From an uncultured Spirochaetales bacterium (GTDB lineage Bacteria; Spirochaetota; Spirochaetia; Sphaerochaetales; Sphaerochaetaceae), in assembly GCA_949282255.1 (NCBI GenBank), contig CASDPA010000012.1, positions 1 through 64,000 of the forward strand: a stretch of DNA of 64,000 bases, in the 5' to 3' direction. The notes under the pieces are model-generated. The model was not told the origin of the DNA, searched no databases, and saw only the letters and a program-made list of their open reading frames with translations. Shown one piece after another: positions 22,973-42,026 of the stretch (positions within the stretch are counted from its first letter, which is position 1; each line of letters opens with the position of its first letter). A program made the position numbers and the translations under genes.

Positions 22973-22986
22973 AATATTACTCCTTC

Positions 22987-23004: not shown

Positions 23005-23055
23005 ATAAATTGTGCAAACGTCAATGTCCTGTCATAGCTCGTTGTACTCCACTCC

Positions 23056-23655: not shown

Positions 23656-24398
23656 TTTGCTTCTCCCTGCTTCGCAACGCTCTGGATCTTCGCTTCAAGC
23701 TCTTTCGCATCCCCAAGATAGCGATGGCTTATAGCCTTCAGATCATCATCAAGTTCATAGACAAGCGGTACACCAGTGGGAATATTGATACCGACAATAT
23801 CATCATCGCTGATTTCATCAAGATATTTGACAAGAGCCCGGAGGGAATTGCCATGGGCTGCAATAAGCACGTTCCGGCCAGCCTCTATATCCTTCTTTAT
23901 GACGTTCTCGTAGTACGGGACAACACGTGCAATGGTATCCTTAAGGCTCTCAGTAAGCGGAAGCAATGATTTTTCGACATTCCTGTACATTTTCTGCAGC
24001 GCCGGATTCCTCTCATCCGCTGGCTCCAGCGCCGGTGGTTGTATGTCAAAGGAACGTCTCCAGATCCTGACCTGCTCCGCCCCATATTTAGCAGCTGTCT
24101 CAGATTTGTTGAGCCCCTGAAGTGCACCATAATGCCGTTCATTGAGGCGCCAGTCCTTGACTACAGGAATCCATTCTTCATCAAGTTCTCCAAGAACTGC
24201 CGATGCAGTGTGTATGGCCCTCTTCAGATACGATGTATAGCAGATATCAAAAGAAAGCCCCTCTTCCTTTAAAAGTCTGCCACCTTGATGTGCCTCATTC
24301 CAACCATTTTCAGATAACTCGACATCAGTCCATCCTGTGAAGAGGTTAGCTTTATTCCACTCACTCTCTCCATGCCTTATCATTACAAGTATATGCAT
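23652..24398 (-). CDS. gpmA: 2,3-bisphosphoglycerate-dependent phosphoglycerate mutase
   Basis: A 248-residue glycolytic enzyme interconverting 3- and 2-phosphoglycerate. The phosphohistidine motif is RHGESEWN near residue 8, followed by [28 protein letters not shown] and the second catalytic histidine in [15 protein letters not shown]. This is the metal-independent isozyme, in contrast to the manganese-dependent GpmI. The ATG at 24398 has GAGGTGG at good spacing and gives the standard N-terminus; the in-frame ATG at 24410 lies within the ribosome binding site. It sits behind a perfect shared operator. Confidence 0.93.
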
Positions 24399-24411
24399 AA
24401 TCCACCTCATT

Positions 24412-24429
24412 AGTTAGCTAATGCTAACT
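24412..24429. promoter_or_regulatory. shared operator, copy 8 (phosphoglycerate mutase)
   Basis: AGTTAGC-TAAT-GCTAACT, perfect arms. On the minus strand it merges with TATAAG (aaaTATAAGTTAGC). It ends 14 bases before the gpmA start. Confidence 0.87.
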
Positions 24430-24577
24430 TATATTTTATCTGATTCTTCCTCATATAGAAACCCCAAATCGAAAGCTGGATACGAACCAAGGGCCTTTAA
24501 CGCATGCTTCCAACACTATTTGGACAATACGCAGTTGTTTCAAACTCCAATGAACGTTGACCTCCCTGATATGAAAA

Positions 24578-24928
24578 TCAAGTATTCAAGAGGAGGCGTC
24601 TCTTTATTTCTGGAAGCGCTGCTGATGCCTGCGAAATAGCAGAAAGAATTGCACCCTTGTCCTGTGGGGTGTAGTAAAGTATGCGGAACTTCAGCCTGGC
24701 CAACTGAGGCATATAGGTGGATGCGAATCTGATAAGATTCTCGGCAGAAGGTATGCACTCCGCTCTATATGAAACAAGGAAACTTCCTGTATTCGTATTT
24801 CGTTCTATGCCAGTAACGATTCCTGTTGCATCAAGGAGAGATGTAAAGGCAGATGCGATATCATCATCACGGAAAATCCGGCTACGCAACCTTATACGTC
24901 CCGGGATGAAACTTGTCACAATTCCCAT
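24578..24928 (-). CDS. small HMA-like protein encoded after the metal ATPase
   Basis: A 116-residue protein beginning MGIVTSFIPGRIRLRS. The IPGRIRLR stretch matches the start of the metal ATPase encoded just upstream (HSIPGRIRLEY), so both carry the same HMA-like ferredoxin fold domain; no CxxC metal motif is present. The start shares its A with the ATPase stop codon (TGATG) and has AAGGAGG. Likely a partner or regulator of the ATPase; a direct metal-carrying role is doubtful without cysteines. Confidence 0.6.
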   Translation of the reverse strand: MGIVTSFIPGRIRLRSRIFRDDDIASAFTSLLDATGIVTGIERNTNTGSFLVSYRAECIPSAENLIRFASTYMPQLARLKFRILYYTPQDKGAILSAISQASAALPEIKRRLLLNT

Positions 24929-27030: not shown

Positions 27031-27080
27031 TCAAGGCTCCATAAAATTCAAAGCCCTCCGCCGAAGCGGAGAGCATGACA

Positions 27081-27308
27081 TTAATTTGCGGAGGGTGCAG
27101 ACTGGGCTGCCCTGTATTCAGCCTCTGCCGCGGCGTCCTCAGCATCTTCTTTGATGGACTCCACGAAAGCAGATGCATCTTTCTTGAGCTGCATTCCTGC
27201 ACTGACAAGCCTGGAAGCCCCCTTCCTGAAAGCCGGCGTACGCATGAATGTGACAAGAGCTGCACCAGCTACCGCTCCAACAAGAAAAGCCGTAACTGTT
27301 TTGTTCAT
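27081..27308 (-). CDS. small membrane-anchored protein preceding the metal ATPase (PacL-like)
   Basis: A 75-residue protein: one glycine/alanine-rich membrane helix at residues 5-22 (TAFLVGAVAGAALVTF), then an amphipathic, charged tail ending in an acidic, alanine-rich stretch (EDAEDAAAEAEYRAA). Size, topology and position before a P-type ATPase match the PacL (DUF1490) metallochaperones of mycobacteria, but the histidine-rich metal motif of those proteins is absent. YtxH-like stress proteins are an alternative. GGAGG precedes the ATG, and one operator copy lies directly over the leader. Confidence 0.6.
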   Translation of the reverse strand: MNKTVTAFLVGAVAGAALVTFMRTPAFRKGASRLVSAGMQLKKDASAFVESIKEDAEDAAAEAEYRAAQSAPSAN

Positions 27309-27326
27309 TGTTAGCCTCCACTAACT
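27309..27326. promoter_or_regulatory. shared operator, copy 9 (metal ATPase operon), diverged
   Basis: TGTTAGC-CTCC-ACTAACT, two mismatches to the consensus. It overlaps the ribosome binding site and touches the start codon of the 27081 gene. Confidence 0.6.
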
Positions 27327-27344
27327 TCAATATATTATCACTAT

Positions 27345-27362
27345 AGTTAGCAAAGCGCAACT
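27345..27362. promoter_or_regulatory. shared operator, copy 10 (divergent, faces the island)
   Basis: AGTTAGC-AAAG-CGCAACT: left arm perfect, right arm diverged. On the plus strand it follows CTATAG directly and precedes a ribosome binding site and an 11-codon reading frame. It may serve both directions. Confidence 0.65.
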
Positions 27363-27377
27363 GTTTGGAGGAATTTT

Positions 27378-27413
27378 ATGAAAGCCAGAAGTAAAAGAGG
27401 AATAGAAGATTAA
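27378..27413 (+). pseudogene. 11-codon reading frame with full expression signals (truncated gene or leader peptide)
   Basis: ATG at 27378 preceded by GGAGGAA; the product would be MKARSKRGIED. Upstream are a -10-like box and an operator copy, the same arrangement as before the regulated genes, but the reading frame stops after 11 codons and the genomic island follows. The simplest reading is the 5' remnant of a regulated gene cut by island insertion. A leader peptide is the alternative. Confidence 0.45.
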
Positions 27414-27845
27414 AGAACAATCACCTACAGGTCTAGTTTCTTTCTTACTGCCCTTACATTCACTGTGCCCTAGAGTGAGTACGTATGGGTTGCAAGGACA
27501 GCATTTAGTACATGTGCGTTGTAATCAGCCTGCGTATCAGAGCAGAAATGATGGATGACTCTAGGACACAAATTCCTTGTGTTGTATGATTATTCAGCCG
27601 AATCCAGGAAGTTAGGGCCATAAGGGAAACTCCTTATCAATATTACGCATCATTGCCCTACCCTAAAAGGCTTTATAGCAATCTTTTGGGCTTTAACTTG
27701 GCCCACAAAGATTTGGGCCGATGCACTTAAGAGTGTTTTTCCTGAAACAGGGTTATATATTATGGAATCAGCAGCCATGCCGTTATCACGTCATAATAAA
27801 GAAGAAATAAACTTCAGCGCTTTCAGCGCCCTTCTTCATTGATGT
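27414..27845. other. long leader of the island, no gene found
   Basis: About 430 bases without a supportable gene. It includes short repeated words and a small hairpin (AGCGC-TTTCA-GCGC) about 20 bases before the AAA+ gene. No Shine-Dalgarno is visible before 27846, so the start of that gene or its leader may be unusual. Confidence 0.45.
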
Positions 27846-29636
27846 ATGAAAAACAAAGATACATCAACAATAGCAACGGCATTGAGTTGGATTGAAGGGC
27901 CTAACTTCTTCGAAAGCTCAGAACGGCTTGCAGGTTCGCTGATTTCATCCTTTCCCCTTTCGAGAGTAGAAGCACTTACAATCGTGATCATCGAGGCAAT
28001 GTGCAACCACAATGTCATAGCCACAAAGAAGAAAATCCGTGACGTACTCATCGAACAGTTTGGAATCGTATTAACAGAAGCTGAGAAGAAATCGGTCGAG
28101 AGGATGTTCGACATCATAGCGGCAGGAAGGACAAGGTTGAACAGCATCTCGACTCCTTGGGTCTCTTATCTCTGGGAGAATGTGGCATTCAGCAATGAAC
28201 TGCTTGAGAAGACGGATATTCCAGACTGCAGCGATGTCGCAGGCTTCTATGAGATAGATCCAAGGGTAATCAGCCTGATAAAGCACGCCATATCATCGAA
28301 GTCACCGATTGCAATCATGATTGACGATTTCCTTCAGCATATGAGCCTTGGAATCATCAAGAGTCTTCTCGAAAAGGAAGGAATCTACTGTCTGTTAGGC
28401 TCTGAGATGAACAGCGATGACGCTGGGGTATACGCGATGCAGGCAATACAGGCGATGCATCTTGGAGGCATAGTCCTTTTCTCTGAGAGCGCTCCTGCAA
28501 AGATGGATAAGTTCATCAATATGGCTCAGATATTCGGATTCAGATTCGGAACTTTGAGAACAACGGGTTCTGGTGAAATCAATCTTACTGAAGATGAAGA
28601 AGCGTCCTCTAATAATGGCGATGATGTACCAGCTATCGAATATGTCCCCATCATCAATCTCATGCCCAGCCATATATCAGGGGAGAAACTAAGAAATAAA
28701 GCAGCAGAATACTTCTCCGATGATCCTGAGTTCCTAAGGATTCTTATTAGTTCTAAGGCCAATGTCGCGACACTCTGTTATTCCAAGACGCTGATAATGG
28801 AGATTGCAGCAAAACAGGACTGGGAAGCATTGTCGAAGTTGCTTGGAGATGCACAGAAGGCTGAGATATCAGAAGATACGAGAAAGAGGAGACAGGTCAA
28901 TTCCGATCAGTATGATATCAGGGTAATCAACAGCGACACTCCCATAGATATCCTCGATAAGATGGCGGAGAAGGCAGTCAGACAGCACTCTCCGTGGAAG
29001 TTGATGATACATGGACCGAGCGGCAGCTCAAAATCTAGTTACGCGTACCACGTTGCAGAAAAGCTCGGAGTGGAGATTATCGTCAAGCGTTATCACGATC
29101 TCGTTAGTAAATGGATGGGACAATCCGAAGAACAAATTTATCAAGCCTTCAAAGAAGCAGAAGATAAACGTGCTCTTCTTCTCCTAGATGAGGTTGATGG
29201 GTACATATCACGCAAAACCGATGTCTATAGCGGAGGTGATAAGGCCCACAATGATATCACCACGTCATTCATGGTCAACCTTGAGGAATACAACGGACTC
29301 GTCATCGCAACGACCAATCGCCCTGAGCTGATCGACCCATCTCTTGTGCGCCGCTTCCATAAGATTGTCGAATATAAGTTCCCGACCTATGACGGCATGA
29401 AACTCCTAATAGAAAGATACTTCCCTGATGTGGACTTTGACAAGAGGGAACTTGAGAGAATCTGCTCACTCGGATCAATAGGACCTGGCGACTTCGTCGC
29501 AGTGAAGGAACTGACAGAGTACATGGAACCAGAAGATGTCACAGGAGAAATCATCCTCGAATCGCTTTATTCAAATGCAGCCGCACGTAATGCATCCATA
29601 CGCAGATCACCTGAAATTAGGGGCTTCAGATCCTGA
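27846..29636 (+). CDS. AAA+ ATPase with a large uncharacterised N-terminal region
   Basis: A 596-residue protein. The C-terminal third is a classical AAA+ module: Walker A GPSGSSKSS (about 389-397), Walker B LLLLDEVDG (about 446), sensor 1 ATTNRP, and the arginine pair in DPSLVRRF (about 502). The Walker A has serine where the third glycine of GxxGxGK is normal. KWMGQSEEQI is a substrate-pore-like loop as in FtsH or proteasomal ATPases. Residues 1-380 match nothing I know. No ribosome binding site is seen before the ATG at 27846; upstream ATGs are out of frame. First gene of the island cassette, probably a remodelling ATPase for a neighbouring protein. Confidence 0.75.
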   Translation: MKNKDTSTIATALSWIEGPNFFESSERLAGSLISSFPLSRVEALTIVIIEAMCNHNVIATKKKIRDVLIEQFGIVLTEAEKKSVERMFDIIAAGRTRLNSISTPWVSYLWENVAFSNELLEKTDIPDCSDVAGFYEIDPRVISLIKHAISSKSPIAIMIDDFLQHMSLGIIKSLLEKEGIYCLLGSEMNSDDAGVYAMQAIQAMHLGGIVLFSESAPAKMDKFINMAQIFGFRFGTLRTTGSGEINLTEDEEASSNNGDDVPAIEYVPIINLMPSHISGEKLRNKAAEYFSDDPEFLRILISSKANVATLCYSKTLIMEIAAKQDWEALSKLLGDAQKAEISEDTRKRRQVNSDQYDIRVINSDTPIDILDKMAEKAVRQHSPWKLMIHGPSGSSKSSYAYHVAEKLGVEIIVKRYHDLVSKWMGQSEEQIYQAFKEAEDKRALLLLDEVDGYISRKTDVYSGGDKAHNDITTSFMVNLEEYNGLVIATTNRPELIDPSLVRRFHKIVEYKFPTYDGMKLLIERYFPDVDFDKRELERICSLGSIGPGDFVAVKELTEYMEPEDVTGEIILESLYSNAAARNASIRRSPEIRGFRS

Positions 29637-29976
29637 TCTAGAGAAAAGGAACCTTCAGCACCTTCGGTGCCTCCAGTAATGGAATGTAAATCAAGTCAGA
29701 TGATTGGTTCTGACAGATCTGGCACGCCTTCAGAGGAGGGAAGGTCCTACAGCTTAGTTCATGCGTAGAGAGAAAAAGTGCCAGTACATCGGAAGAGCTA
29801 CGGCTCGCAACAACTATTCATTCATACGGAAGAATCAAAGAAATCGAAGGAGGTGAAAGGAAAGAACAGCAAGGGCTTCCAGCCCTTATCCAATCAATCG
29901 TTCGTATATAGGTGAAAGCCTATCCAAACCAGACCTTGCAGAAAGCAAGAGAATATCAAGAAGAAGGAGAACTAAC
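29637..29976. other. 340-base spacer with four short stem-loops
   Basis: No gene. Stem-loops on the plus strand: GCACC-TTC-GGTGC (29658-29670), GAGC-TACG-GCTC (29795-29806), AAGGGCT-TCC-AGCCCTT (29871-29887) and ATAGG / CCTAT with loop TGAAAG (29908-29923). Similar small stem-loops recur in the following spacers of the same cassette. A 31-codon frame at 29761 lacks a ribosome binding site and is not called. Confidence 0.5.
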
Positions 29977-30351
29977 TTGTTCGACAACCCGGACTCAGCT
30001 TACAACATTTCAGAAATCGTATGTGGGGAAATAATCCCCGGCCCAGACTCAGATTACGGTGTTTTCGTATTCAGGGGAGAATCGAAATACGGCCATAACA
30101 GAGTACTGATACTCGCAATCATGAAGACCGATGGAAAGTCCTTCTGGTTCCTCTCAACAGATATCGTATCAGAGGAACATTTCACATCAGAGACGATACT
30201 CAGCACGAGGGACAGGAACCTCTCTGCGATTCTCCAGACTATCGACGGACAGCTCATCGTAAGCTTCTTCGATACTGCTATGGATGGAACGGTCACAGAG
30301 AGCAGTCACGTGATAACGCTTCCTGTAGAAACATCTCTCAGGTCCAAGTAA
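29977..30351 (+). CDS. uncharacterised island protein (paralogue 1)
   Basis: A 124-residue protein of unknown function, predicted all-beta and cytosolic. It starts with TTG at 29977, preceded by GAAGGAGA at good spacing. Its middle (VFVFRGESKYGHNRVLILAI) aligns with the next gene product (IVFIGRKQNATLNRIIFALL), and both end in alternating hydrophobic strands, so the two are distant paralogues. No known domain recognised. Followed by a strong GCAA-loop hairpin. Confidence 0.55.
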   Translation: MFDNPDSAYNISEIVCGEIIPGPDSDYGVFVFRGESKYGHNRVLILAIMKTDGKSFWFLSTDIVSEEHFTSETILSTRDRNLSAILQTIDGQLIVSFFDTAMDGTVTESSHVITLPVETSLRSK

Positions 30352-30354
30352 GCC

Positions 30355-30374
30355 AGCGCCCCGCAAGGGGCGCT
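30355..30374 (+). terminator. stable GNRA hairpin after paralogue 1
   Basis: AGCGCCCC-GCAA-GGGGCGCT, perfect 8-bp stem with a GCAA tetraloop, followed by CTTCCTTC. It starts 4 bases after the stop codon. Either a terminator or an mRNA end-protecting hairpin. Confidence 0.6.
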
Positions 30375-30454
30375 CTTCCTTCAAAAGAGGATGGAAAAAT
30401 GGGCTTTCAGCCCAATCAGAATTAATTGAAAGACAATCAAAAGGAGAAAACGCT

Positions 30455-30811
30455 ATGCAGTTTAACATCCAGAATTACGAGGTTGAGACGATAATCTTCG
30501 CTCACGTGCTTCCAGTTAGCAGAGAATACACAATCATTGTATTCATAGGGAGGAAACAAAACGCCACCTTGAATCGCATCATTTTCGCTCTGCTGAAAGT
30601 TGAGAATGGCGAAACGACAGTTGCAGATGAAATCTCTGTACCCTCATGTGGAGTGATCAGGGAAAATACGGAAGTACTGCTTGCATCCGAATCAGTGAAC
30701 ATCCATTTCACAATCGTTAATGAAACGACAGTGGATATTTCATATACCGATACAGATTATTGCAGTGCCTCAGCAAAAGAGCATTTCACCCTCAAGCTTC
30801 AGTCAGATTAA
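30455..30811 (+). CDS. uncharacterised island protein (paralogue 2)
   Basis: A 118-residue protein with AAAGGAG before the ATG. It shares a VFxG....LNRII.A..K pattern with the preceding gene product and appears to have the same beta-rich fold. No signal peptide, membrane helix or known motif. Role unknown; conserved order with the AAA+ gene suggests a substrate or adaptor, which is inference. Confidence 0.55.
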   Translation: MQFNIQNYEVETIIFAHVLPVSREYTIIVFIGRKQNATLNRIIFALLKVENGETTVADEISVPSCGVIRENTEVLLASESVNIHFTIVNETTVDISYTDTDYCSASAKEHFTLKLQSD

Positions 30812-30831
30812 GGGATAAGAGGAGCCTTCGG

Positions 30832-30940
30832 CTCTCTCAGTTTTAAACATCAGAACAATGAACAGACGCATATATCACTCAGGCTTTCCGTAAGGAGAAG
30901 CCAAGCCAGACACGCACTTACAACATATAGCTTCGGCTAT
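30832..30940 (+). repeat. two further short stem-loops of the cassette
   Basis: GAGCC-TTC-GGCTC (30832-30844), 20 bases after the stop codon of paralogue 2, and ATAGC-TTCG-GCTAT (30927-30940), a UUCG tetraloop, before the next gene. They continue the stem-loop pattern of the earlier spacers. Confidence 0.55.
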
Positions 30941-30983
30941 CCATCAAAGACTGGGATAACCCAGAAAAGAAAAGGAGTTCCAT

Positions 30984-31346
30984 ACGGAAAAGACAGAAAA
31001 GAAGGATAAGTACGGAACGGTCATACTCAGCCTCAAGACAACAGTCGAAGAGCTGGCTGACCATCTCGGCGAAATGGAGATAAGCGGGGCATGCTTCTTC
31101 ATCGGAGTTAATAACAAGACAAAAAAGCTTTTCTCCACTCTCGCGAGAGTTGACGTACCTGCAGGTGCGGACATAAAGAAGTCAGTAAGCGTCCAGATGT
31201 TTGATTATGAGTATCTCATGAAGCATGAAGAAACGGAGATGCTCAAGTACGGTAATACAAGGCTCTATATCGGACACGATAAGAACGATTTCATCATACG
31301 AGTTGGAGAGGCAGATGAAACTGCAGGAGATGAAGAGGATACTTGA
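30984..31346 (+). CDS. uncharacterised island protein with apparent ACG start
   Basis: About 120 residues. The frame carrying the coding sequence is open upstream to an in-frame TAA near 30966 but contains no ATG, GTG or TTG before the internal ATG at 31074. An AAAGGAG at 30971-30977 is placed exactly for ACG at 30984, which would give a normal-looking N-terminus (MEKTEKKDKYGTVILSLK). So either ACG is used as a start or the ATG was lost by one substitution and only the shorter form from 31074 (no ribosome binding site) can be made. The C-terminus is acidic (DETAGDEEDT). Function unknown. Confidence 0.5.
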   Translation, partial: TEKTEKKDKYGTVILSLKTTVEELADHLGEMEISGACFFIGVNNKTKKLFSTLARVDVPAGADIKKSVSVQMFDYEYLMKHEETEMLKYGNTRLYIGHDKNDFIIRVGEADETAGDEEDT

Positions 31347-31426: not shown

Positions 31427-31948
31427 ATGAGAACAACACAGATCTTTTTCAGAAACCTTATGGCAATCCTCGAAAGCAGAGGGCTTTCACTCACATGGAT
31501 TGAGGATAAGACAGGCATCAGCGAAGTTTTCCTCTCTACCTTCGAGTGGATAGCATCAGGACTCAGCTTCCAGCTTGTACTCAGGGTGGCGGTAGCTCTC
31601 GAGGTTTCGATTGAAAGCCTGATTTCTGAAGATGGCAAGACAGAAACGGCGTTTTATGAGAAATCCAATCCCAAGGAGGCATATCTTGATATCTACAGGC
31701 GTTTCTGGACTGCCGTGGATTACGAGGCGAACAGGAAAGACAAGGATTTGTACGACATCGCATGGGTTGCAGGTAAAACAATTGCCGGAATCGTCAGCTG
31801 CGCTACAAGAGATAAGGATATTGATATCCAGAGAGCAGAAGCGATAGCCCTCCTCCTCGATACGACTATTGACAGGCTCATCTGGGAACCAATCCCCGAA
31901 TATGCGTATGAAGAATCACTTGAAGATCTGCTTGTAGCAGGGTTCTAG
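31427..31948 (+). CDS. Cro/CI-type helix-turn-helix protein
   Basis: A 173-residue protein with a Cro/CI-like helix-turn-helix at residues 5-65 (GLSLTWIEDKTGISEVFLST, then LRVAVALEVSIESLIS). A second stretch at about 115-155 (AGIVSCATRDKDIDIQRAEA and after) looks like a diverged second copy. ATAGGAG precedes the ATG. Likely controls the island cassette or the excisionase/integrase genes just downstream; no peptidase or sensor domain is visible. Confidence 0.65.
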   Translation: MRTTQIFFRNLMAILESRGLSLTWIEDKTGISEVFLSTFEWIASGLSFQLVLRVAVALEVSIESLISEDGKTETAFYEKSNPKEAYLDIYRRFWTAVDYEANRKDKDLYDIAWVAGKTIAGIVSCATRDKDIDIQRAEAIALLLDTTIDRLIWEPIPEYAYEESLEDLLVAGF

Positions 31949-32411: not shown

Positions 32412-33518
32412 ATGCCTGCATACAAAGACAACGCTTCCGGAAATTGGTACGTAAAGTTCCAGATAAAAGGAAAGGATGGCCAGATAAAGCAGATCAAGCG
32501 TCGCGGATTTCAGAAGAAAAAAGATGCGATTATGTGGGAAGCTGAAACCAGAGCTTCGTATACAAACAGTTGCTCTATGAAGTTTTCCACTTTCGTTTAC
32601 GAGAAGTATCTCCCATACGAGGAAGGCATCATAAAAAGGGTGTCATACATAAGCAAAGTCAGTATCATTGATACTCATATCATGCCTTTCTTTGGAGATA
32701 TGAAAATCGATGAAATTGATGTACAGGATGTAATTGACTGGCATTCATGGTTGATGGAGAAACCAGCCAGAAACAAAATGGGACATCTTTCCAGTTCTTC
32801 TCTTGCAAACATTCATGGGCAAATGCATCACATCATGAAACATGCAATGAAGGTCCTCTCTCTTCAGCGGGATGTAGTTGACATTGCAGGAACTATCGGC
32901 CATCAGTCGAAGATCCGCAATACATACTGGACACTTGAGGAATATAAGGCTTTCGATAAAGAACTTGTGAATGGAAAGTATAATCCACAGTGTCATTATG
33001 CTTTCCTTCTTATGTTCTTCTGCGGTCTAAGAACAAGTGAGACACTGGCTCTCCTTCCTTCTGATTTTGATTTCACAAAGAAAACTGTTTCAATCACAAA
33101 GAACTATCTGCGTAGGAATGGAGAGAATCTTGTAAGTACACCAAAGACAGAATCGTCAAACAGAACCCTGGGAATGCCCGATATTGTTGCGGACGAGCTT
33201 AAGAAATACATCGAAGGGCTCTATGACATTGGTCCAGACGAAAGGATATTCACAATTTCCCGCTATACGCTCAGAAGAGTTCTCAAGGTTGCAGGAAAAG
33301 CGGCAGGTATTGAAACAGAAGTGAGTCCGCATTCGCTCAGGCATAGCATGGCAACGCTTTTGATGGAAAGTGGGTACTCCTTGACAGATGTGGGTAAGCG
33401 ACTAGGGCATGCCTGGTATGGTTCTACCCTGCGGTATGTCCACACATACAATTCCGTTCAGGACAAGATGGTCGAAACGCTTAACGAATTGTCAAAGGAT
33501 CAGTCTAAGACATCCTGA
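32412..33518 (+). CDS. int: phage-type tyrosine integrase
   Basis: A 368-residue site-specific recombinase. The N-terminal arm-binding domain (NWYVKFQIKGKDGQIKQIKR) is followed by a helical core-binding domain and a catalytic domain. Visible catalytic residues: Arg in CGLRTSETLALL, His/Arg in SPHSLRHSMATLL, His in RLGHAW and the nucleophile Tyr in TLRYVHTY. The start at 32412 follows GGAGGTG; the longer frame from 32343 overlaps the excisionase gene. It ends the cassette and is followed by a strong terminator. Confidence 0.9.
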   Translation: MPAYKDNASGNWYVKFQIKGKDGQIKQIKRRGFQKKKDAIMWEAETRASYTNSCSMKFSTFVYEKYLPYEEGIIKRVSYISKVSIIDTHIMPFFGDMKIDEIDVQDVIDWHSWLMEKPARNKMGHLSSSSLANIHGQMHHIMKHAMKVLSLQRDVVDIAGTIGHQSKIRNTYWTLEEYKAFDKELVNGKYNPQCHYAFLLMFFCGLRTSETLALLPSDFDFTKKTVSITKNYLRRNGENLVSTPKTESSNRTLGMPDIVADELKKYIEGLYDIGPDERIFTISRYTLRRVLKVAGKAAGIETEVSPHSLRHSMATLLMESGYSLTDVGKRLGHAWYGSTLRYVHTYNSVQDKMVETLNELSKDQSKTS

Positions 33519-33596: not shown

Positions 33597-34880
33597 ATGA
33601 AAAATAATGCAAATATAAACACTGAAATCAATGTCACCATCCATCAAGGACCAAGCGGAAGTGGAAAATCAACACTGCTGAAAGAACTCTGGAGTAAAGA
33701 CCCATCTCACACTCTTTGCTTGGCCCCAACAGGCATAGCTGCAGAACGTCTCAGAGATGAAGGCTGCCCTGCTCTAACCATACACGCAACATTTAACCTG
33801 CCACCAGTTGCAATCCCAGTTTTCAAGGAGTCTGATTATAGGAAGAATAAAGAGCTTCTTGACTCCTTAAACCAAATACTGATTGATGAAATGTCGATGA
33901 TCAGCTGTGCTCTAATGGATTGGATTCTTTCTTTGCTTAATGCTTCCGCAGTGAATGGACATCATATTTACCTTCACCTTTTCGGCGATGTAATGCAGTT
34001 ACCACCTGTTTTTAAGGTTCCAAAAAGAATAGAAACATATAAAACCCAGCTTTATGGGCAAAATAGATTCTTTTTCAACGCAGTTGGTTTCAATACTATC
34101 CATCCAGAGGTACATTTCATGGAGAAAAACTATCGCCAAAGAGACAGCAAATTTATTGATGCCTTGTCTAGATTCAGATTCGGAGATGAGACAGAGAACG
34201 ATATCAAGCTGTTAGATAGCCGAGTAATATCACGCGATGTTTTTGCCTTACAAAGAGGTGCTCCTTTTCTCACCCTTGTATCAACAAATAAAGAAAAGGA
34301 TGAAATCAATTCAAAAGAACTCTGTAATAGGAATCTCATAGGAAAAGGCGTTTCCTATTTTGCAGATATTATTGGAGATAACAGCATGGAAACACTTAGC
34401 CAGATTCATGAGGCTATCACATTGCATATAGGCGAGCAGATTGTGTGCACCAGCAACTCCAAATCATATAAGAACGGAACAATAGGAAAAATTGTTGACT
34501 TCACGGATGATGACATACCCCTCCCTATCGTCATAACAAGTTCTGGAAAAGAAGTGACGGTAAAGCAGAAAACAATAAAGACTCTTGTACCGGTCATCAA
34601 TGATGAATGCATATCTTATATTGAAACAGGATCTGTATCTCAAATTGCCTGCCAGAGTGCCTATGCTGTTACAATTCACAAAGCTCAAGGGCTTACCCTT
34701 GATGCCGTATATATCATGCTGGGAAACTGGGCAGCAGAGGGCTCTCTTTACGTAGCCCTTTCTCGTTGCAAGACAATAGATGGAATCGGCCTGAATCGCT
34801 CAATAGAACCAAAAGATGTCAAAATGGATAAAGAAGCATTAAAATTCTTCGAACAATACGATTACCAACGAGTCTCATAG
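33597..34880 (+). CDS. Pif1/RecD-like superfamily 1 DNA helicase
   Basis: A 427-residue helicase. Motif I GPSGSGKST (residues 18-26), Ia LAPTGIAAERL, II LIDEMSMI (about 94), III GDVMQLPPV, V VTIHKAQGLTLD and VI LYVALSRCK are all in order. Pif1-type enzymes unwind 5'-3' and clear structured DNA; small stand-alone versions are common in mobile elements. CAGGAG precedes the ATG. Its 3' end overlaps the convergent 34862 gene by 19 bases, which ties it physically to the recombinase operon. Confidence 0.85.
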   Translation: MKNNANINTEINVTIHQGPSGSGKSTLLKELWSKDPSHTLCLAPTGIAAERLRDEGCPALTIHATFNLPPVAIPVFKESDYRKNKELLDSLNQILIDEMSMISCALMDWILSLLNASAVNGHHIYLHLFGDVMQLPPVFKVPKRIETYKTQLYGQNRFFFNAVGFNTIHPEVHFMEKNYRQRDSKFIDALSRFRFGDETENDIKLLDSRVISRDVFALQRGAPFLTLVSTNKEKDEINSKELCNRNLIGKGVSYFADIIGDNSMETLSQIHEAITLHIGEQIVCTSNSKSYKNGTIGKIVDFTDDDIPLPIVITSSGKEVTVKQKTIKTLVPVINDECISYIETGSVSQIACQSAYAVTIHKAQGLTLDAVYIMLGNWAAEGSLYVALSRCKTIDGIGLNRSIEPKDVKMDKEALKFFEQYDYQRVS

Positions 34881-35884
34881 TATTTTTGTCCGATTCTTTC
34901 ATGGAAGCTGCTCAGATCTTCTCGGAACATCGGTTCAGAGAGATCAGCGAATTGTCTCATATTTCTTATATATCCAAAAACAACGGGGCGCTCAGTGAGC
35001 GCCTTATAGTCGTCATCTGTCTGGCTTGGACAATGAGTCCTTATGAACTCAACAGCAGGCACCCAATCTGCAAGAATAAGATAAAGGTCGTTATTTGTCC
35101 TGCGGTTCCCATTAGAATCATAGCTTACCTTCCTTGTGACTCTTTCTGAAATCCTCCTTAAATTAACATTTTCCTTATCAGGAGTTTTGCGGTCACCGTA
35201 AAGGATAAAACAGATTCGGTCGCTAGGGTCTGAATATTCATATGGATCCTGCATAAGCCAAGAATCCTGATCTCTAAAAGTTTCCCTACAATAATCTCCT
35301 ATATTCTTGTCATACGCTGACATAGCAATAACAAGCATAGGACCATGAACTAGCCGTGTCTTTTCCCTATACAATCTATAGGTCCTTGAACTAAAAAAAA
35401 TATCAGCAACATCAAGTTCAGAATCCTTGGTTTTCAGGTGCAGTTGGGCCCCGGAAAGTTTTTTATACAGTTCTTCAAGATTCTTTGGTTCCCTGTATAT
35501 CATTCCATCAGGAGCTTCTATTCTGTGATCATAGCTGTAACCTTTGCATATTGAATTATAGAAATCCTTGATGGAGAACTCGGAAATCCTGCGGGAGATG
35601 CGACAGTCCGAATCCTCCTGAGGTTCATCGAATTTAAAAGCCTGATCACACCCTTTGATGTGCATTTTGCTCTTTAGTTTGTATTCGTATTTAGCATCTT
35701 TAGATAAATTCAGATTGAGTTCTGCGTTACAATAATTCCCAAACCTATCCATTCCGCAGCAATAAAACCTGCACGCTGATTCCTGAACTGCACATTCCAG
35801 TGACTTAATACGTGCTTCCTGTGCAGTATAAAGTTTATCGCGCCATATGGTCTCACCATCCCCGAAGTAAGCTTTCCTATCCAT
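34862..35884 (-). CDS. uncharacterised protein with an N-terminal zinc-finger-like cluster
   Basis: A 340-residue protein. Residues 31-79 hold C31, C38, C42, C43, C52, H75 and C79 in a pattern (CRFYCCGMDRFGNYC, later HIKGC) that looks like a zinc-binding module of the kind found at the start of CoiA-like and other DNA-associated proteins. The rest has no motif I recognise. The ATG at 35884 follows AAAGGAA and overlaps the recombinase stop by 8 bases; the ATG at 35899 has no ribosome binding site. Last gene of the three-gene minus-strand operon. Confidence 0.6.
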   Translation of the reverse strand: MDRKAYFGDGETIWRDKLYTAQEARIKSLECAVQESACRFYCCGMDRFGNYCNAELNLNLSKDAKYEYKLKSKMHIKGCDQAFKFDEPQEDSDCRISRRISEFSIKDFYNSICKGYSYDHRIEAPDGMIYREPKNLEELYKKLSGAQLHLKTKDSELDVADIFFSSRTYRLYREKTRLVHGPMLVIAMSAYDKNIGDYCRETFRDQDSWLMQDPYEYSDPSDRICFILYGDRKTPDKENVNLRRISERVTRKVSYDSNGNRRTNNDLYLILADWVPAVEFIRTHCPSQTDDDYKALTERPVVFGYIRNMRQFADLSEPMFREDLSSFHERIGQKYYETRW

Positions 35885-37376
35885 TTGTTTCCTTTCCATG
35901 AGCTAAAGCAGTCTTTTCTTTTCGATTCTCCTTTGCTATTGCATCCGCGTAAACGCCATAAACAGCCTCATTGATGTTTACAGTCTTTCTAATATCTCCC
36001 ATCTGAGGTATAGAGAAAGCAGCCCCTTTCAAACCATCACAAGATGACTTTACTCTTACATTATCATAAGTTTCATTTGCTATTACCTGAATGAAAACAG
36101 TTTCTCCTGGATGTTTGAATGAGTACGTATTCTCAATATGATGATGGTTCTTCCCATCTTCAAAATAAATATGATCATAAATGAATTGAAATGGATGCTT
36201 TTTCATTTTTGAACATATACTTTCAAGCTCATCACCAGAAGAAAAATAGCTACGTTGATATCCCTCTTCTTCGATATCGTGGCCAATGAGATATTGTATC
36301 TGCCGGGATTCCATGCCAAGATTTCCAAGATGCGTAGCGAAATTCCGTCTGAAAAGATAAGTTGTCGGATCTTTTTCATCTATACCAGCATCTCTTAGTT
36401 TCGATGAAAAGTCCTCAGTAAGAGCTATAATCCGTTTATCAGATTCTGAATCGTATCCAAGAATTTTATTGAAAAGCTTTTTGCCTGCTGCAGAAAGATC
36501 AGAGGCACTTAGGTTATCGGTAATATTATTTCCATTCGCAATAAAAAGTTTTTCTACATTCTTACTTTTATCCTCTGCAGAATTATCTGAAGAAATGATA
36601 CTGCTCATATAGGTCTTCCTATTTTCAAGAATTTCACATGCAAAAGGATATATTGGTATGACCCTAAATGCATTTTTTGTTTTACCCCCTATGCGGACAG
36701 TTTTAGAGCCGGCAACTGTTGTCTGTTTAATATAGAAGGCTTTCATGCCATTAGGTAAGTCTTTAATATCCCCAAAGGTCAGCCCGCATGCCTCGCCATT
36801 GCGAATCCCGAAGAGGAACATAAGCATCAGTCCAATGTCTTCTCCTTTGGCTTTTTCCATATCCAGTTTTTTTATCCATCTAACGAGTTTTATCTCCTCT
36901 TCTATTCCAAAGGATTTCTTCAGCAATAGCCTAGTTCCTCTTTTCTTGACAGCCTTGCTTTTTCCTTCTTCGTAATCATCTGGATAAGCCCTCTGGATAA
37001 ACCCCTCTCCATTGACTGCCGATAGATAAGTTCTTGATACAAGCCTGTAATAATGTGCTAATCTCTGCTCCTCTGCTTTTGGACGGATATTCTTGATTTC
37101 ATCATGAATCCTTTCGATTATCTCATTGGTGAATGATTCTATCGCAATTTCTGTTCCAACCCTCTTAATCGCAGGCAAAACAGTATTGATATAATCTATG
37201 AGGTATTCTCTTGCTGTCTCGTCTGACCATCCTTTTGATACTGCTCCTTCAGCATACCTGTCATCACCAAAGTATCTGATTAAAGCACCAGAGAAGGTCA
37301 ATTTGCCGCTTGTTGTATACAAAGGGAAATTTGCTTCAACCCTAGCTCTAAGACTTATATCCATTCTCGTCGACAT
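35877..37376 (-). CDS. tyrosine recombinase of an unusual two-recombinase operon
   Basis: A 499-residue protein. A helical N-terminal half leads to a catalytic domain with Arg in FGIRNGEACGLTFGDI, then TTYLFRRNFATHLGNLGM (Arg kept, the first His replaced by Tyr), the His of YLIGHD and a plausible nucleophile Tyr in RSYFSS. About 140 residues follow the catalytic domain, which is unusual. GGGGAG precedes the ATG, and only 3 bases separate it from the large upstream gene, so the two are co-translated. Probably an active partner; substrate sites unknown. Confidence 0.7.
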   Translation of the reverse strand: MSTRMDISLRARVEANFPLYTTSGKLTFSGALIRYFGDDRYAEGAVSKGWSDETAREYLIDYINTVLPAIKRVGTEIAIESFTNEIIERIHDEIKNIRPKAEEQRLAHYYRLVSRTYLSAVNGEGFIQRAYPDDYEEGKSKAVKKRGTRLLLKKSFGIEEEIKLVRWIKKLDMEKAKGEDIGLMLMFLFGIRNGEACGLTFGDIKDLPNGMKAFYIKQTTVAGSKTVRIGGKTKNAFRVIPIYPFACEILENRKTYMSSIISSDNSAEDKSKNVEKLFIANGNNITDNLSASDLSAAGKKLFNKILGYDSESDKRIIALTEDFSSKLRDAGIDEKDPTTYLFRRNFATHLGNLGMESRQIQYLIGHDIEEEGYQRSYFSSGDELESICSKMKKHPFQFIYDHIYFEDGKNHHHIENTYSFKHPGETVFIQVIANETYDNVRVKSSCDGLKGAAFSIPQMGDIRKTVNINEAVYGVYADAIAKENRKEKTALAHGKETNG

Positions 37377-37379
37377 TTT

Positions 37380-40300
37380 TTACTCCCCAACTATCTCTGG
37401 TTTTTCCTTAATTTCAATCTGTGGATATACCTTAAGTGTTACCCCATGCGGGCTTTCAGTGCTGAAAACTATTTCCTTGCCTATTTCAGCTGTAATCTCA
37501 AGATTTATTGCATCATGCAAAGTCTCAGGGCCTGAACTGCTTTCCCATTTTGCTTCAGAAAAACCCAAATCAACAGGTCTATTAATATGATGCTCATCAG
37601 CAATAAGAATGGATTGCAGCCTCAAGAGTTTTGAGTACAGCCTGAACTGTGCCGCATCATTGCTGAAATCACAATAGTACCTGCCAAAAGTTGTCGGCCG
37701 TTTATTTCCAAGTAAATATGCGATTTCGTCTGTATTAAAACCTGAATTAAGAATCCAATATCGGAAGTTTTCTCTGAAAATATCTCCTTTGTATTTACCC
37801 AAATCAAGCTCTAAGCCTGTATTATCATCCGCCGATATTGAAATCTCGACCCCTTTTATTCCGGCTGCCTGAATGATGTCTTTTGCACAACTATCCAATG
37901 CAGAAGGTTTCATCGTCTGTTTTCCTTTTTGTCTGTCGACTGTGCTTTGCACAAGAAATCCAGATTTTGACTTCACAGACAAATCAATCCTCTCTGCAAG
38001 AATTGGCATGCAGGGGATTCTACGTATATCATCATCACTGATAAGAGTTAGAATATCATTTCCATCACCTGTAGCCTGCTTGTATATATCCAGCTGGTTG
38101 AAAGCATATGATTTGCATGTAGTGAACTCTGAATCTGTCAGAGCGCAAACGATATGGCTCTCCAATCCTGTAAGGAGTTTTATAAGAACTCCAATATATT
38201 CAGAGTTTCCAGAGCGCAATTTATCAAGTATCGCTTCATATACTGCTCTAAACTCAGAGAGACTGAAAATTTTCTTGACATATGCCTGCCTAAGATGGGA
38301 TAAGGCCGTACTTACCCGTAGCTCATCAGCAAGGAATTTTCCAATGAGATTTTCTTTGAGAAGACGCTTTTTCCTTATCTCTTCGAATATACCATATAAA
38401 GCTCTGAGAATCTTTGCATTCAAAGACTCGCTTCTGTCCGGAATGAAACTGTCCAGTGCATCAATGATATCATCAGCTGTAATGAAGCTGAGAGGTTTCG
38501 ATCTGATTGGATCAAGTAGTTCGTATATATAATATGCCTTCTTATCCGTCTTCAAATACTCCGGCATTATAAACGGTTCCTTATCCAATTCCGGATGAAT
38601 GTATATATACGCTCCTACAGAAACCATGCTGCTTGAAAGCTTGTCTCTGTATGCAGTGGCTATCGCCGTTCTTATTTCTCTGTATTTGTACGGACAGAAA
38701 GTATAGGAATCCTCTTTTTCAACTTGCTTTCGCTCGACAGGATCAAGTGGAATATTTACCCGCGCATTCAGATATTCTTTCAGGATTATCTCTTCAATGT
38801 CCGCATCTGTGGCAGATAGTGGTGCGGTCAATGCCTTATCACTCGACTGAAGCTTTTTACCTGTAGCTTCATACACATCGCTTTCTTTATATTCATTGAC
38901 ATATACGTCAAGTTTGTACGCTGTTATACTACCATTTCTCTGTTTGTGAAGCCTCTTTGTATAGTAAATGCATATTTCTGGCGTGAATTGAACCTTTTGA
39001 GGGGAATTCTTCTTTTTGTCTTTCTTCAAATATCTACCAGAAATAAATGCCCTTAAGCTTGCAGGATAGGTTACAAGCTTCGTCATATCGGCCTGCATTA
39101 TCTTCTCAGGGTCGGCTATATAGGCACGAGGGGATTCTATATAAAGCGGTTTCTGTTGTGAAGATAGAGCAATCATGGTAGCGGCTTTCAAATACTGGCA
39201 TTTTGATAGTGCATTATTTTCATCTTTCGCCATTGCTTTCCAGAAAATCTTCTTTTTAGAGCTTTGCCCTGTATCTACGCCACTCTTAGATCTTCGTGGG
39301 ATTATATAAATATCGCTTATGTATAATGAATCAGAAGATGGTGATGAAATCAGCTTGCCTGGTAGATAGAGGAAGTCCTTCATAGCTGAATCAGGAGAGA
39401 ATCCGAAAAGAACCGAATCTGACGGCAATTTAGAAAGAATCAATTCTGTCGTATTTCCTATCACCGATTCCTGAGCCGTCTTTTCTTTATTAGAAAGCCG
39501 GGTTTTTCCTGCCATATATGAATATCTGTTTTCAAATATCAGAATCCTGATTGAAGAAGCAAATGATTCAATATGCTCAATCTCCTTTATCCATTCATGA
39601 AATCCTAGAAATGAGAATTCGGGTCTAGGCGAAGGGGCAGCAAAACTATCTGGGCTGAAGTATGAATCAAGGATTTGTGCAGACTTTTCATCTGTCATAA
39701 CAAATGTAACATTTACATTATTAAGCAGAGGCTCTGAAGCCCAAGCAGTGACAAATGCAACAGAGGGAAGGATGATTAGACATTGGGCAGATCCCAATGA
39801 TGCAACTTCTGAAACAAACAGCCTCATTGCAATGCTGATTTCAATCGCTGTGTCATTCCGTTTATAGGTAGAACCCAACACTGATTGGCTTTTCTCTTCT
39901 GAATTTCTCCTGTTTAGTCGCTTTGATTTGCTCTCCTTCTTAAGCACGTCAAGACATTCCAGAAGTTCGTTTGGACTGACCTGCCCACTAATCATATAAT
40001 ATAGGTGATCTATCTCTTTCTTTGTTTCTGGAAAATCCAGATAGCCTCGTGAGAATCGTGATTCCTTTATTTTTCCTTCCCAGCCATTACCAGCAACAGC
40101 ATTGAAAACAAAATCGATGATTTCATTGTTTGAAGCATTCAGTTCTGCGGATAAAACATGTATCAACCTCGAAGCACACACTACAGCGTCTGGAGCGAGA
40201 AGCTGGCGTGGCGAGGTCTGGCTAATATAGCAGATCTGTTCAACATACAACCTGAAAGACCGTTTTGTCAGGAAAGGAATCCCATTAGCCGCAGCCTCAT

Positions 40301-40868
40301 CCGCATATCTATCATAGAGTGCCGAGTAATTGAGTACAGCGTTGTTCCCGATATTTTGATATTTGTTTGGATTATCGCTTTCGTTCTCAATTTGCAACTC
40401 ATTCGTCTTGATTGTATTTGGACACAGTTCTTTATAGATATCCTTGATCGTAACTATCGCAAAGCCAAAGGAGAATGCACACAGTTCTCGATTCCCGGAA
40501 TTTGCTAGAATCATGTCTCTGTCAGGCTCAGTCCTGTTCGTTGTAAACGAAACGGAGTGCCTTTCCTGATTTCTCCAAATCCCCAACGGATCACCACAAT
40601 AACATGGGATTGCCGATAGTATGAATCTTGCAATACTGAATCGAGAGAATGCAATATCGCACTGTGCAAAAGCAGTATTTGATGTATCCAGATCAAGAAC
40701 AAAGGAGCATCTGGGAGGGCGATTAGCCTCAGGAATTCGATTGTATTGGAAGGCACAATAAGCACGCAATAAAGTAGCTTCGCTTATATGCGTACCCGTT
40801 GGTAAAAGTGGACTTAGGAATTCAGTCAATCTCTTACCGAACCTGGTCATGAACATATTCGGCAACAT
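37380..40868 (-). CDS. large protein with degenerate tyrosine-recombinase-like C-terminus
   Basis: A 1162-residue protein. The last 330 residues follow the tyrosine recombinase plan but with key losses: LLTGLESHIVCAL stands where GLR..E..AL is normal (the first catalytic Arg is Glu), DIFRENF stands for HDLRHTF (His lost, Arg kept), LLGNK for LLGH, and GRYYCDF keeps a Tyr. Residues 1-800 match nothing I can name. I placed the start at the ATG at 40868, 8 bases after GGAGG; two in-frame candidates at 40874 and 40883 are too close to the ribosome binding site or are TTG. First gene of the operon. May be a structural or targeting partner of the 499-residue recombinase. Confidence 0.6.
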   Translation of the reverse strand: MLPNMFMTRFGKRLTEFLSPLLPTGTHISEATLLRAYCAFQYNRIPEANRPPRCSFVLDLDTSNTAFAQCDIAFSRFSIARFILSAIPCYCGDPLGIWRNQERHSVSFTTNRTEPDRDMILANSGNRELCAFSFGFAIVTIKDIYKELCPNTIKTNELQIENESDNPNKYQNIGNNAVLNYSALYDRYADEAAANGIPFLTKRSFRLYVEQICYISQTSPRQLLAPDAVVCASRLIHVLSAELNASNNEIIDFVFNAVAGNGWEGKIKESRFSRGYLDFPETKKEIDHLYYMISGQVSPNELLECLDVLKKESKSKRLNRRNSEEKSQSVLGSTYKRNDTAIEISIAMRLFVSEVASLGSAQCLIILPSVAFVTAWASEPLLNNVNVTFVMTDEKSAQILDSYFSPDSFAAPSPRPEFSFLGFHEWIKEIEHIESFASSIRILIFENRYSYMAGKTRLSNKEKTAQESVIGNTTELILSKLPSDSVLFGFSPDSAMKDFLYLPGKLISSPSSDSLYISDIYIIPRRSKSGVDTGQSSKKKIFWKAMAKDENNALSKCQYLKAATMIALSSQQKPLYIESPRAYIADPEKIMQADMTKLVTYPASLRAFISGRYLKKDKKKNSPQKVQFTPEICIYYTKRLHKQRNGSITAYKLDVYVNEYKESDVYEATGKKLQSSDKALTAPLSATDADIEEIILKEYLNARVNIPLDPVERKQVEKEDSYTFCPYKYREIRTAIATAYRDKLSSSMVSVGAYIYIHPELDKEPFIMPEYLKTDKKAYYIYELLDPIRSKPLSFITADDIIDALDSFIPDRSESLNAKILRALYGIFEEIRKKRLLKENLIGKFLADELRVSTALSHLRQAYVKKIFSLSEFRAVYEAILDKLRSGNSEYIGVLIKLLTGLESHIVCALTDSEFTTCKSYAFNQLDIYKQATGDGNDILTLISDDDIRRIPCMPILAERIDLSVKSKSGFLVQSTVDRQKGKQTMKPSALDSCAKDIIQAAGIKGVEISISADDNTGLELDLGKYKGDIFRENFRYWILNSGFNTDEIAYLLGNKRPTTFGRYYCDFSNDAAQFRLYSKLLRLQSILIADEHHINRPVDLGFSEAKWESSSGPETLHDAINLEITAEIGKEIVFSTESPHGVTLKVYPQIEIKEKPEIVGE

Positions 40869-41090
40869 GTGCATTTCCTCCAAGATATCTAGCTTTCAAG
40901 AAGCACCTAAAAATGGTACTATAATCAATATATACCACAATTACAAAACATATGCGTTAAAAACATTAAAGAATTTATGGTATAAAAACGTACCGAAACG
41001 TTCCACGACTTCATCGCCAATTGTAGATAATTCTATATACAATAAGAAATTATCTGCAATATACCATACAAATCAACAATTTAAAACAAA
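40869..41090. other. AT-rich island end with inverted repeats
   Basis: About 220 very AT-rich bases upstream of the recombinase operon. TATACCA or its complement occurs three times (near 40929, 40977 and 41060). The promoter of the operon must lie here. No gene is seen. Confidence 0.45.
41020..41060. repeat. 13-base inverted repeat near the island end
   Basis: ATTGTAGATAATT (41020-41032) and AATTATCTGCAAT (41048-41060) pair with one mismatch across a 15-base spacer. This could be an operator of the recombinase operon or a recombination site; tyrosine recombinase core sites usually have shorter spacers. Confidence 0.5.
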
Positions 41091-41117
41091 AAAGGCGGCA
41101 TGAGCCATGCCGCCTTT
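41091..41117 (-). terminator. terminator after the sigma factor gene
   Basis: AAAGGCGGCAT-GAGCC-ATGCCGCCTTT, perfect 11-bp stem. On the minus strand it is followed by a run of T (TTTTTTGTTTT), and it sits 34 bases after the sigma factor stop codon. It marks the edge of the core genome next to the island. Confidence 0.92.
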
Positions 41118-41150
41118 AAAAGTTAGCTGAAAATTTTACCTTACAGCCTA

Positions 41151-42026
41151 TCATATTGCAATTGTATAATCCTCAAGGTCCAATCCCTTGCTGTTTTCTC
41201 TCAGTCTCTCGAGTGCACGCTTCTCAATCTGTCTGATTCTTTCCTTTGTAAGACCGTAGTTCTCCCCTATTTCCTTAAGGCTCATAGGCTTTCCTCCGCC
41301 TATACCAAATCTCAACTCCACAATCTTCCTTTCTTTTTCAGGGAGAGTCATCAAAAGAGAGCGTACGTCATTCTTGAGGCTCTCATCCACAACCTCTTCC
41401 TCCGGTGTCCTTGAAGGGTCGACAAGGAATTCTGTAAGGGTCGAATCGCTGTCATCCTTGCTCCTTATGTTGGAATCAAGGTTGATCATATCCTGAGTTA
41501 TGTTAAGGAGGTCTTTGACCAGATCCTTATCCAAACCGGTGCGGTGCGAAATCTCTTCAACATCCGTCGTATCGCTCTCCATTTCGTGCATGATCTCGCT
41601 CTGCGCTTTCTGGATCTGCACAAGTTCGTTGGCTCTGTTAAGCGGGAGACGAACCGCACGCGCCTTTTCGCTTATGGCTTTCATTATGGACTGTCTTATC
41701 CACCATACGGCATAAGAAATGAAATGATATCCCTTCTCCGGCTCAAACTTCTCGAGTGCGGTTATCAAACCAATATTTCCCTCGTTAATAAGATCGGAAA
41801 GGGCAAGCCCCTGTCCTCTATATTTCTTCGCTACGGATACGACAAAACGCAGGTTGGCATTGATTATTCTGTCAAAAGCCTTCTTGTCCCCTTCCTTAGC
41901 TTTTAAGGCAAGCTGATACTCTTCCTCATAGCTGAGCATGGGAATCTTGTTTATTTCATTGAGATACATGGAAAGGACTTCATCATCACTATCCAAGAAA
42001 GCTGCATTCATTTTTTCGTTTGACAT
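41151..42026 (-). CDS. sigma-70 family RNA polymerase sigma factor
   Basis: A 291-residue sigma factor with region 1.2 (VLSMYLNEINKIPMLS), regions 2.1-2.4 (IINANLRFVVSVAKKYRGQG, then YAVWWIRQSIMKAI), region 3 and a complete region 4 helix-turn-helix (LKEIGENYGLTKERIRQIEK). It lacks the long 1.1 and non-conserved regions of a full RpoD, so it is of group 2 (RpoS-like) or a minimal housekeeping type as seen in some spirochaetes. AAGGAG precedes the ATG. Monocistronic. Confidence 0.88.
   Translation of the reverse strand: MSNEKMNAAFLDSDDEVLSMYLNEINKIPMLSYEEEYQLALKAKEGDKKAFDRIINANLRFVVSVAKKYRGQGLALSDLINEGNIGLITALEKFEPEKGYHFISYAVWWIRQSIMKAISEKARAVRLPLNRANELVQIQKAQSEIMHEMESDTTDVEEISHRTGLDKDLVKDLLNITQDMINLDSNIRSKDDSDSTLTEFLVDPSRTPEEEVVDESLKNDVRSLLMTLPEKERKIVELRFGIGGGKPMSLKEIGENYGLTKERIRQIEKRALERLRENSKGLDLEDYTIAI

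Follow-up and report, generated by a model that had tools for sequence, protein, structure and literature searches.

The DNA analysed here is a stretch of 64,000 nucleotides (the window) that begins at base 1 of contig C12 of the genome of an uncultured Spirochaetales bacterium (the source genome, G000; 2.35 Mb in 51 contigs). An earlier note on this stretch had described three tightly packed minus-strand genes converging with a Pif1-like helicase gene and had suggested that they could be a new mobile element or a defence-type module. We refer to the three minus-strand genes as A, B and C and to an integrase gene upstream of the helicase as Int391. The genes of this module, with protein lengths in amino acids (aa), are as follows:

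37380 to 40883, minus strand: gene A, 1167 aa from a TTG start or 1162 aa from a later ATG
35877 to 37376, minus strand: gene B, a tyrosine recombinase of 499 aa (Phage_integrase, PF00589)
34862 to 35899, minus strand: gene C, an accessory protein of 345 aa, or 340 aa from the next ATG
33597 to 34880, plus strand: a Pif1-type SF1B helicase of 427 aa, convergent with C
32412 to 33518, plus strand: Int391, a complete tyrosine integrase with a conserved start at 32412 in an open reading frame that opens at 32343
31427 to 31948, plus strand: a small regulator of 173 aa with a weak helix-turn-helix, conserved beside the integrase gene

The sizes and positions given earlier for the three packed genes were right, the lengths of 1162 and 340 aa fitting the later ATG starts, and the 19-base overlap between the helicase gene and C (34862 to 34880) was exact. 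The overlap between B and C is 23 bases long, and a 3-base gap separates A from B. An identical gene order recurs in other genomes, which places the arrangement far outside what chance would give. By its full-length match to solved Pif1 structures (best PDB match 8bns, E 2e-49), the helicase is a genuine Pif1 protein of SF1B. The description of a two-recombinase unit had left out Int391, which is a third and complete recombinase. Int391 has arm-binding, SAM-like and catalytic domains and a complete catalytic set (R230, K268, H330, R333, H356, and Y365), and the transposon enzyme 'Int protein' 6emz, which we take to be the Tn1549 Int, is among its relatives in the PDB. Judged from the sequences, Int391 belongs to the same unit as A, B and C. 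Protein C is Cys rich, as had been noticed, with an invariant Cys-Cys-His-Cys set (C47, C57, H80, and C84), and probably binds zinc. C had no named-family match and no recombinase match, and a fold search with its AlphaFold model (seven sequences; low confidence, with a predicted local distance difference test score [pLDDT] of 63) returned only chance-level matches.

Complementary catalytic residues in A and B

B matches Phage_integrase with an E value of 8e-8. For A there was no convincing match in Pfam, NCBIfam, PADLOC or PDB sequences. Homology to B covers residues 794 to 1151 of A (hhalign 97.5%, E 6e-12) and identifies the C-terminal part of A as a domain with the tyrosine recombinase fold. 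It is preceded by a helical start of approximately 340 aa and by a middle part (approximately residues 344 to 550) that looks Rossmann- or methyltransferase-like in a low-confidence AlphaFold model made from seven sequences (pLDDT 61; predicted template modelling score, 0.38). A fold search with that model returned chiefly Rossmann-type methyltransferases (E about 2e-4), with lambda Int also among the matches. An S-adenosylmethionine motif was not recognised in the A sequence, and, with a model of such low confidence, a methyltransferase role for A is not claimed. Both A and B have a beta domain after the usual Tyr position; in B the catalytic residues are followed by this beta domain and then by a further Tyr, Y476.

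Conservation was measured in an alignment of all the pairs (13 B and 14 A sequences), including three very distant ones from Clostridia (L218, L219, and L220). In L218, A is just 491 aa and the long extension sits on B instead, so the two recombinase domains, and not the 740-aa start of A, are on this evidence the conserved heart of the pair. Six residues of B (R192, K232, R238, Y340, R343, and H366) were kept in 13/13 sequences, with Y340 at the usual His position. The nucleophile position of B was occupied by Arg or Lys in 12 of the 13, and there was no conserved Tyr near it, a Tyr being found 2 or 3 residues farther on in just 4/13. Conversely, Tyr1070 of A, within the motif TTxGxYYxD, was present in 14/14 sequences and Arg-II (Arg1037) in most of them, while Arg-I was found in none of the 14. 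On the alignment, then, A and B have lost complementary catalytic residues, each keeping what its partner lost. The simplest reading, which we put forward tentatively, is that A and B are partners in a single heteromeric tyrosine recombinase, with A giving its Tyr to the B pocket. Such an enzyme would be an obligate two-protein recombinase with a permanently split site, the B family giving Arg-I, Lys, Arg-II and His after loss of its nucleophile and the dead-looking A family giving the Tyr (with Arg-II in most members); we regard this as a serious possibility that falls somewhat short of an even chance.

These results modify what had been said of the two proteins. The recombinase end of A had been called degenerate, and it does lack Arg-I, but its nucleophile Tyr is conserved. 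B had been credited with most catalytic residues and does retain Arg-I, Lys, Arg-II and His but not the usual nucleophile Tyr. The view of a catalytic recombinase paired with a degenerate one must be revised, as the losses are complementary and the unit holds a third, complete recombinase.

Evidence for an integrated island with the module at one end

To the right of position 41088, the window matches another species, G003, at 90% identity, and to the left there is no match to G003. The gene beyond the junction in G003 is ppdK (pyruvate phosphate dikinase, named from its protein). Seven related species have ppdK directly beside the sigma gene, which is the arrangement of an empty site. Among the species compared, only in the source genome are the two apart: ppdK (C23:2476-6113) stands at one island end on contig C23, where the G003 homology ends just before ppdK and the other island end (LE) begins, and the sigma gene stands at the right island end (RE) at window position 41088. 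By this comparison, an island is inserted between ppdK and the sigma gene, with LE on one side and RE, just upstream of A, on the other; the joining of the island across the gap between C23 and C12 is our inference from synteny. The features of the two ends are as follows:

40921 to 41097, plus strand: RE, 97% conserved in G045 and 85% in G025
40988 to 41004, plus strand: paired arm-type repeat ACGTACC-GAA-ACGTTCC, the sole copy in the window
41019 to 41062: inverted repeat TTGTAGATAATTC...GAAATTATCTGCAA within RE, its centre inverted in G025
41073 to 41095, plus strand: attR core TCAACA-ATT-TAAAACA-AAAAAGG, with host homology from 41088, beside the sigma-gene terminator
41088 to 42026, minus strand: host flank, comprising a terminator and a sigma-70-type gene that neighbours ppdK in island-free species
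G000:C23:2330-2480 (same genome, different contig): LE

The uninterrupted site of G003 reads AATGGGAAAAGCACAAAAAAAGACGGC, attL on the LE side reads AATAACA-TAA-TGCAACATAAAAAGAC, and the RE side reads ATCAACA-ATT-TAAAACAAAAAAGGCGGC, with attR given as ATCAACA-ATT-TAAAACAAAAAAGG. LE and RE have a common core of the TGCAACA type, GCAACA-N3-TGCAACA-WAAAAAG. In G025 and G045, RE is joined straight to an LE copy via this core, as expected of tandem insertions. Both ends also carry paired ACGTWCC repeats (ACGTACC-AAAA-ACGTACC in LE and ACGTACC-GAA-ACGTTCC in RE), which look like arm sites. The RE form, ACGTWCCRAAACGTWCC, occurs once in 64 kb (expected 0.00), and the LE form, ACGTWCCNAAAACGTWCC, occurs in 31 of 207 loci, each of these 31 holding an LE copy. 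A direct-repeat search inside the window alone gave nothing useful, because the other end lies on another contig. A shorter element of 13 kb ending at 27353 or 27816, suggested by homology breakpoints in G025 and in L017/L018, was rejected because the island runs past the contig start, as is shown both by comparing the ppdK/sigma site and by the G045 copy. As a separate observation, G025 has the centre of the RE inverted repeat in the opposite orientation to that in the window and in G045 (window 41019-41062 versus L068:2990-3036), as though the arms had recombined.

An 18-kb segment of the window (12847 to 30950) is 94% identical to G045:C43, and the end containing A (39053 to 41097) is 94% identical to G045:C47; cargo proteins of the two islands are 98 to 99% identical. 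Because the G045 sigma gene is only 70% identical, and the ppdK-sigma site of G045 itself is empty, the comparison indicates that the island moved horizontally and into a different site in G045. These identities, the empty sites in seven species, ends with a common core and arm motifs, and further copies in the genome support the earlier suggestion of a mobile element, and it is well supported by the sequence comparisons that the trio and Int391 are the recombination module of a mobile island.

LE, of approximately 130 bases, was found in 34/48 genomes of the genus at up to 99% identity, some genomes having two copies 1.5 to 7.5 kb apart. Most copies directly precede the start of a gene that we identify from its sequence as carbamate kinase. 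The sequence TGCAACA-N3-TGCAAC(A) precedes carbamate kinase also where LE is absent (e.g., L179, L184, L196, L200, and L207), and TGCAACA-N3-TGCAACA at this place is thus a conserved chromosomal target whose 3-base spacer varies among copies. Different cargo stands behind LE upstream of carbamate kinase at L101-L130 and L178-L207, a genus-wide insertion hot spot. In five relatives (L017, L158, L155, L156, and L157), A lies beside the 3' end of a GMP-synthase gene (named by reading), past its terminator, and the window junction likewise abuts the terminator of a neighbouring gene.

Recurrence and distribution of the unit

Besides the window copy, the source genome has A at two further places (C35 and C27); counting six more species of the genus, A was found in 7/48 genomes. 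On the longer contigs L017, L018 and L020 the order is identical: (regulator), integrase and helicase on one strand, converging with C, B and A on the other. A search with a B profile added a further Spirochaetales genome, Clostridia (Dysosmobacter, two Lachnospiraceae, and a Ruminococcaceae) and an Aristaeella rumen plasmid. The unit is rare and occurs in Spirochaetales and Clostridia; in the class of G102, 2/391 genomes had it at E 1e-25. The integrase gene adjoins the trio wherever the contig reaches far enough, across two phyla, with the exception of the pair L220, in which the A-like gene is broken in two (L220:4601-6240) and no integrase gene was found nearby; this copy is probably decayed. 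The helicase is confined to spirochaete elements, with a RecD-like one in L155. The concern that homologues might always sit inside a described transposon or phage family was not borne out: no relatives were found in the viral_contigs and phage record sets, and there was no match to proteins of two known systems compared below (those of the SEs, and GmtY). A phage origin was rejected on the same searches, and literature searches found no description of an A-B-C-Int unit.

Comparison with known systems

Strand-biased circularizing integrative elements (SEs; intA-tfp-intB-srap) and GInts, both of them islands, combine two or three recombinases, one of which lacks the full catalytic set, with a small accessory protein; all of these proteins are essential (PMC10214605, PMC5385486). 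Our unit resembles SEs in having two catalytic-type recombinases, one partner without the full motif and one accessory protein (PMC10214605), as well as core genes at one end with cargo behind, a variable spacer by the core, and few selected target sites. However, profile searches and hhalign comparisons of A, B, C and Int391 with the four SE proteins of pAQU1, including Tfp and Srap, gave nothing above noise, and Int391 lies on the opposite strand from A, B and C, so that there is no single operon of the intA-tfp-intB-srap type. Unlike SEs, the unit has an A that keeps its Tyr, a B without one, a helicase, and a distribution outside Gammaproteobacteria. SE membership was therefore rejected by sequence and operon layout.

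With GInts (ginABCD; PMC5385486) the island shares its large size, recombinase genes at one end with a short AT-rich other end, insertion beside conserved genes, imperfect direct repeats at both ends (here attL and attR) and tens of kilobases of cargo. GinC lacks the first Arg (PMC5385486), as A does here. The differences are that two recombinase-fold genes stand in an operon here and the third on the other strand, instead of one four-gene operon, and that A is about 1100 aa with complementary residue loss, the comparison with GInts being one of layout and description. In Tn554 and its actinobacterial relatives (TnpA/B/C), a recombinase of normal size and a very long one with an unrecognised N-terminal extension accompany a third small protein, much as here, and the long and short recombinases are both reported to carry the catalytic motif (PMC3414803). 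In contrast, A lacks Arg-I, B lacks the Tyr, and an additional integrase is present, which sets the unit apart from Tn554. By analogy, the unit would nonetheless work like the multi-recombinase islands of the SE, GInt and Tn554 kinds.

Recombinase-in-trio elements have three adjacent, overlapping recombinase genes, whereas here C matches no recombinase and Int391 does not adjoin the other genes in the operon, and the unit is not of that type. The domain layout and PDB relatives of Int391 and the variable coupling-like bases recall Tn916/Tn1549. Tn916/Tn1549-type elements are not known to have A-B-C partners. Gamma-Mobile-Trios (GmtXYZ) are likewise island-borne trios that include a recombinase. 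Membership was rejected, as the GmtY model NF040693 does not detect B even at E 10.

Proposed mechanism and alternatives

Taking these results together, we consider it moderately likely that the trio and Int391 form the module that recombines a large, site-specific integrative island, with A and B acting as one heteromeric recombinase and C and the helicase as accessories. B would supply a phosphate-binding pocket of Arg-I, Lys, Arg-II and His, and A would donate the nucleophilic Y1070 in trans. Subunits of yeast Flp give a Tyr to one another in trans in a comparable way, but Flp is one protein with all the residues, and here these would be divided between two proteins. Int391 may bind the arm repeats via its arm-binding domain and share in or complete strand exchange. 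The zinc-finger-like C would bind DNA as an accessory factor, taking the place of TnpC, Srap or GinD, and the helicase of the spirochaete elements may unwind, or help to replicate, a junction or circle. Because the 3- to 4-base spacer differs among copies, the comparison suggests that the exchanged strands need not match, as in Tn916 and SEs. If the mechanism is correct, cutting by the A/B enzyme would be restricted to places where A and B are neighbours, which would build in control over the strand and half-site that are cut, and the enzyme would perhaps carry out a single strand exchange only, the remainder being left to Int391 or replication.

Several observations weigh against this proposal. 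The helicase is not universal, being absent from L156, and the large start of A is absent from L218. Confidence in the structure models is low for both A (pLDDT 61) and C (pLDDT 63). No full island is assembled on a single contig, the link between C23 and C12 resting on synteny. LE was seen in 34 genomes and A in 7, most LE copies being in assemblies that show no A-B-C, and LE may also serve non-autonomous units or other recombinases. In addition, Int391 is complete and might do all of the catalysis alone, and B has the second conserved Tyr, Y476; these last two points lead to alternatives of their own.

If Int391 alone carries out integration and excision, then A and B would be catalytically dead DNA-binding architects, like SE Tfp and GInt GinC. 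Int391 has the whole catalytic set and resembles the enzymes of one-integrase elements, and essential recombinase-fold partners without catalytic residues are known in SEs and GInts (PMC10214605, PMC5385486). The invariance of the B pocket (R-K-R-H, 13/13) and of the A Tyr (14/14) at 20 to 35% identity would, however, be unexpected if these residues were merely structural, and we consider this alternative unlikely. It is less probable still that B is active by itself with Y476 as a relocated nucleophile behind the beta domain and that A is dead. All of the 10 closer B sequences have Y476, which is present in 12/13 overall and could be a displaced nucleophile, but this is less likely because it follows the beta domain that A has after its own Tyr; as the A Tyr precedes this shared domain, Y476 looks like an addition behind it, about 110 residues from His366. 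Moreover, L220 has Gln at this position, and the placement of the B C terminus is uncertain in the most distant sequences. That A-B-C is a defence or other cargo module riding on an island moved by Int391, in line with the defence-type module suggested earlier, is very improbable: related islands do carry defence-like genes (an AAA protein with an IetA-like domain and a kinase/phosphatase cluster beside L151), but A, B and C have no PADLOC match, A stands directly at the attachment end where the flank is readable, and the integrase stays the neighbour of the trio across two phyla.

Should A and B share one active site as proposed, the pattern would offer a direct and testable answer to why SEs, GInts and Tn554 need several recombinases, some of them apparently dead, in that the partners may hold parts of one site. 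It would also be a natural recombinase that works solely as a heteromer and whose cleavage is inherently asymmetric, making it relevant both to mechanism and to controllable DNA integration tools. The island itself represents a mobile family without a name in the family libraries searched, with an end sequence in most species of one gut spirochaete genus and a conserved site before carbamate kinase.

Cargo and neighbouring genes

The remaining genes on the window side of the island are as follows:

27846 to 31346, plus strand: AAA ATPase (596 aa) and small genes (124, 118, and 90 aa), syntenic in L017 and L018
1 to 27845: island cargo, including TetR and ABC exporters, a glycyl-radical enzyme, peroxiredoxin, ferritin and a P-type ATPase

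One domain of the AAA ATPase (27846 to 29636) resembles that of the defence protein IetA (PADLOC E 3e-24). The ATPase gene is followed by the three small genes, an arrangement kept in L017 and L018; together they are a possible passenger defence operon. Farther left, at 17313 to 21291, the glycyl-radical enzyme gene (PFL-like), a radical-SAM gene and a methyltransferase gene lie next to those for peroxiredoxin, ferritin and the P-type ATPase. One cargo cluster, which includes a 482-aa protein beginning METRPAVPSAYNTISSNRSIGYSMPSAVADIIDNS..., is found behind the AAA gene at L017:16489-20000 and, in a different species, on the opposite side of A (L021:349-10760).

Same-direction LE copies 1.5 to 5 kb apart enclose small cargo units at L098:846-2480, L132:11657-15150, L131:2455-5736 and L134:2360-7146. 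Such LE-bounded units (a kinase-like gene, or TetR with two ABC exporters) resemble a cassette array without a known integron integrase alongside. Integron-like attC folding of LE was rejected, since the single-strand fold (z -1.3) was unconvincing, although LE units do stand in tandem. In the window no NikA-like mobilization protein was seen and no relaxase was identified. Between the integrase and helicase genes of L018, however, there is a NikA-like mobilization protein (L018:8918-9244; Pfam E 2e-12), with similar open reading frames at L154:17012-17335 and L155:16752-17102, hinting that these relatives may be mobilized by conjugation.

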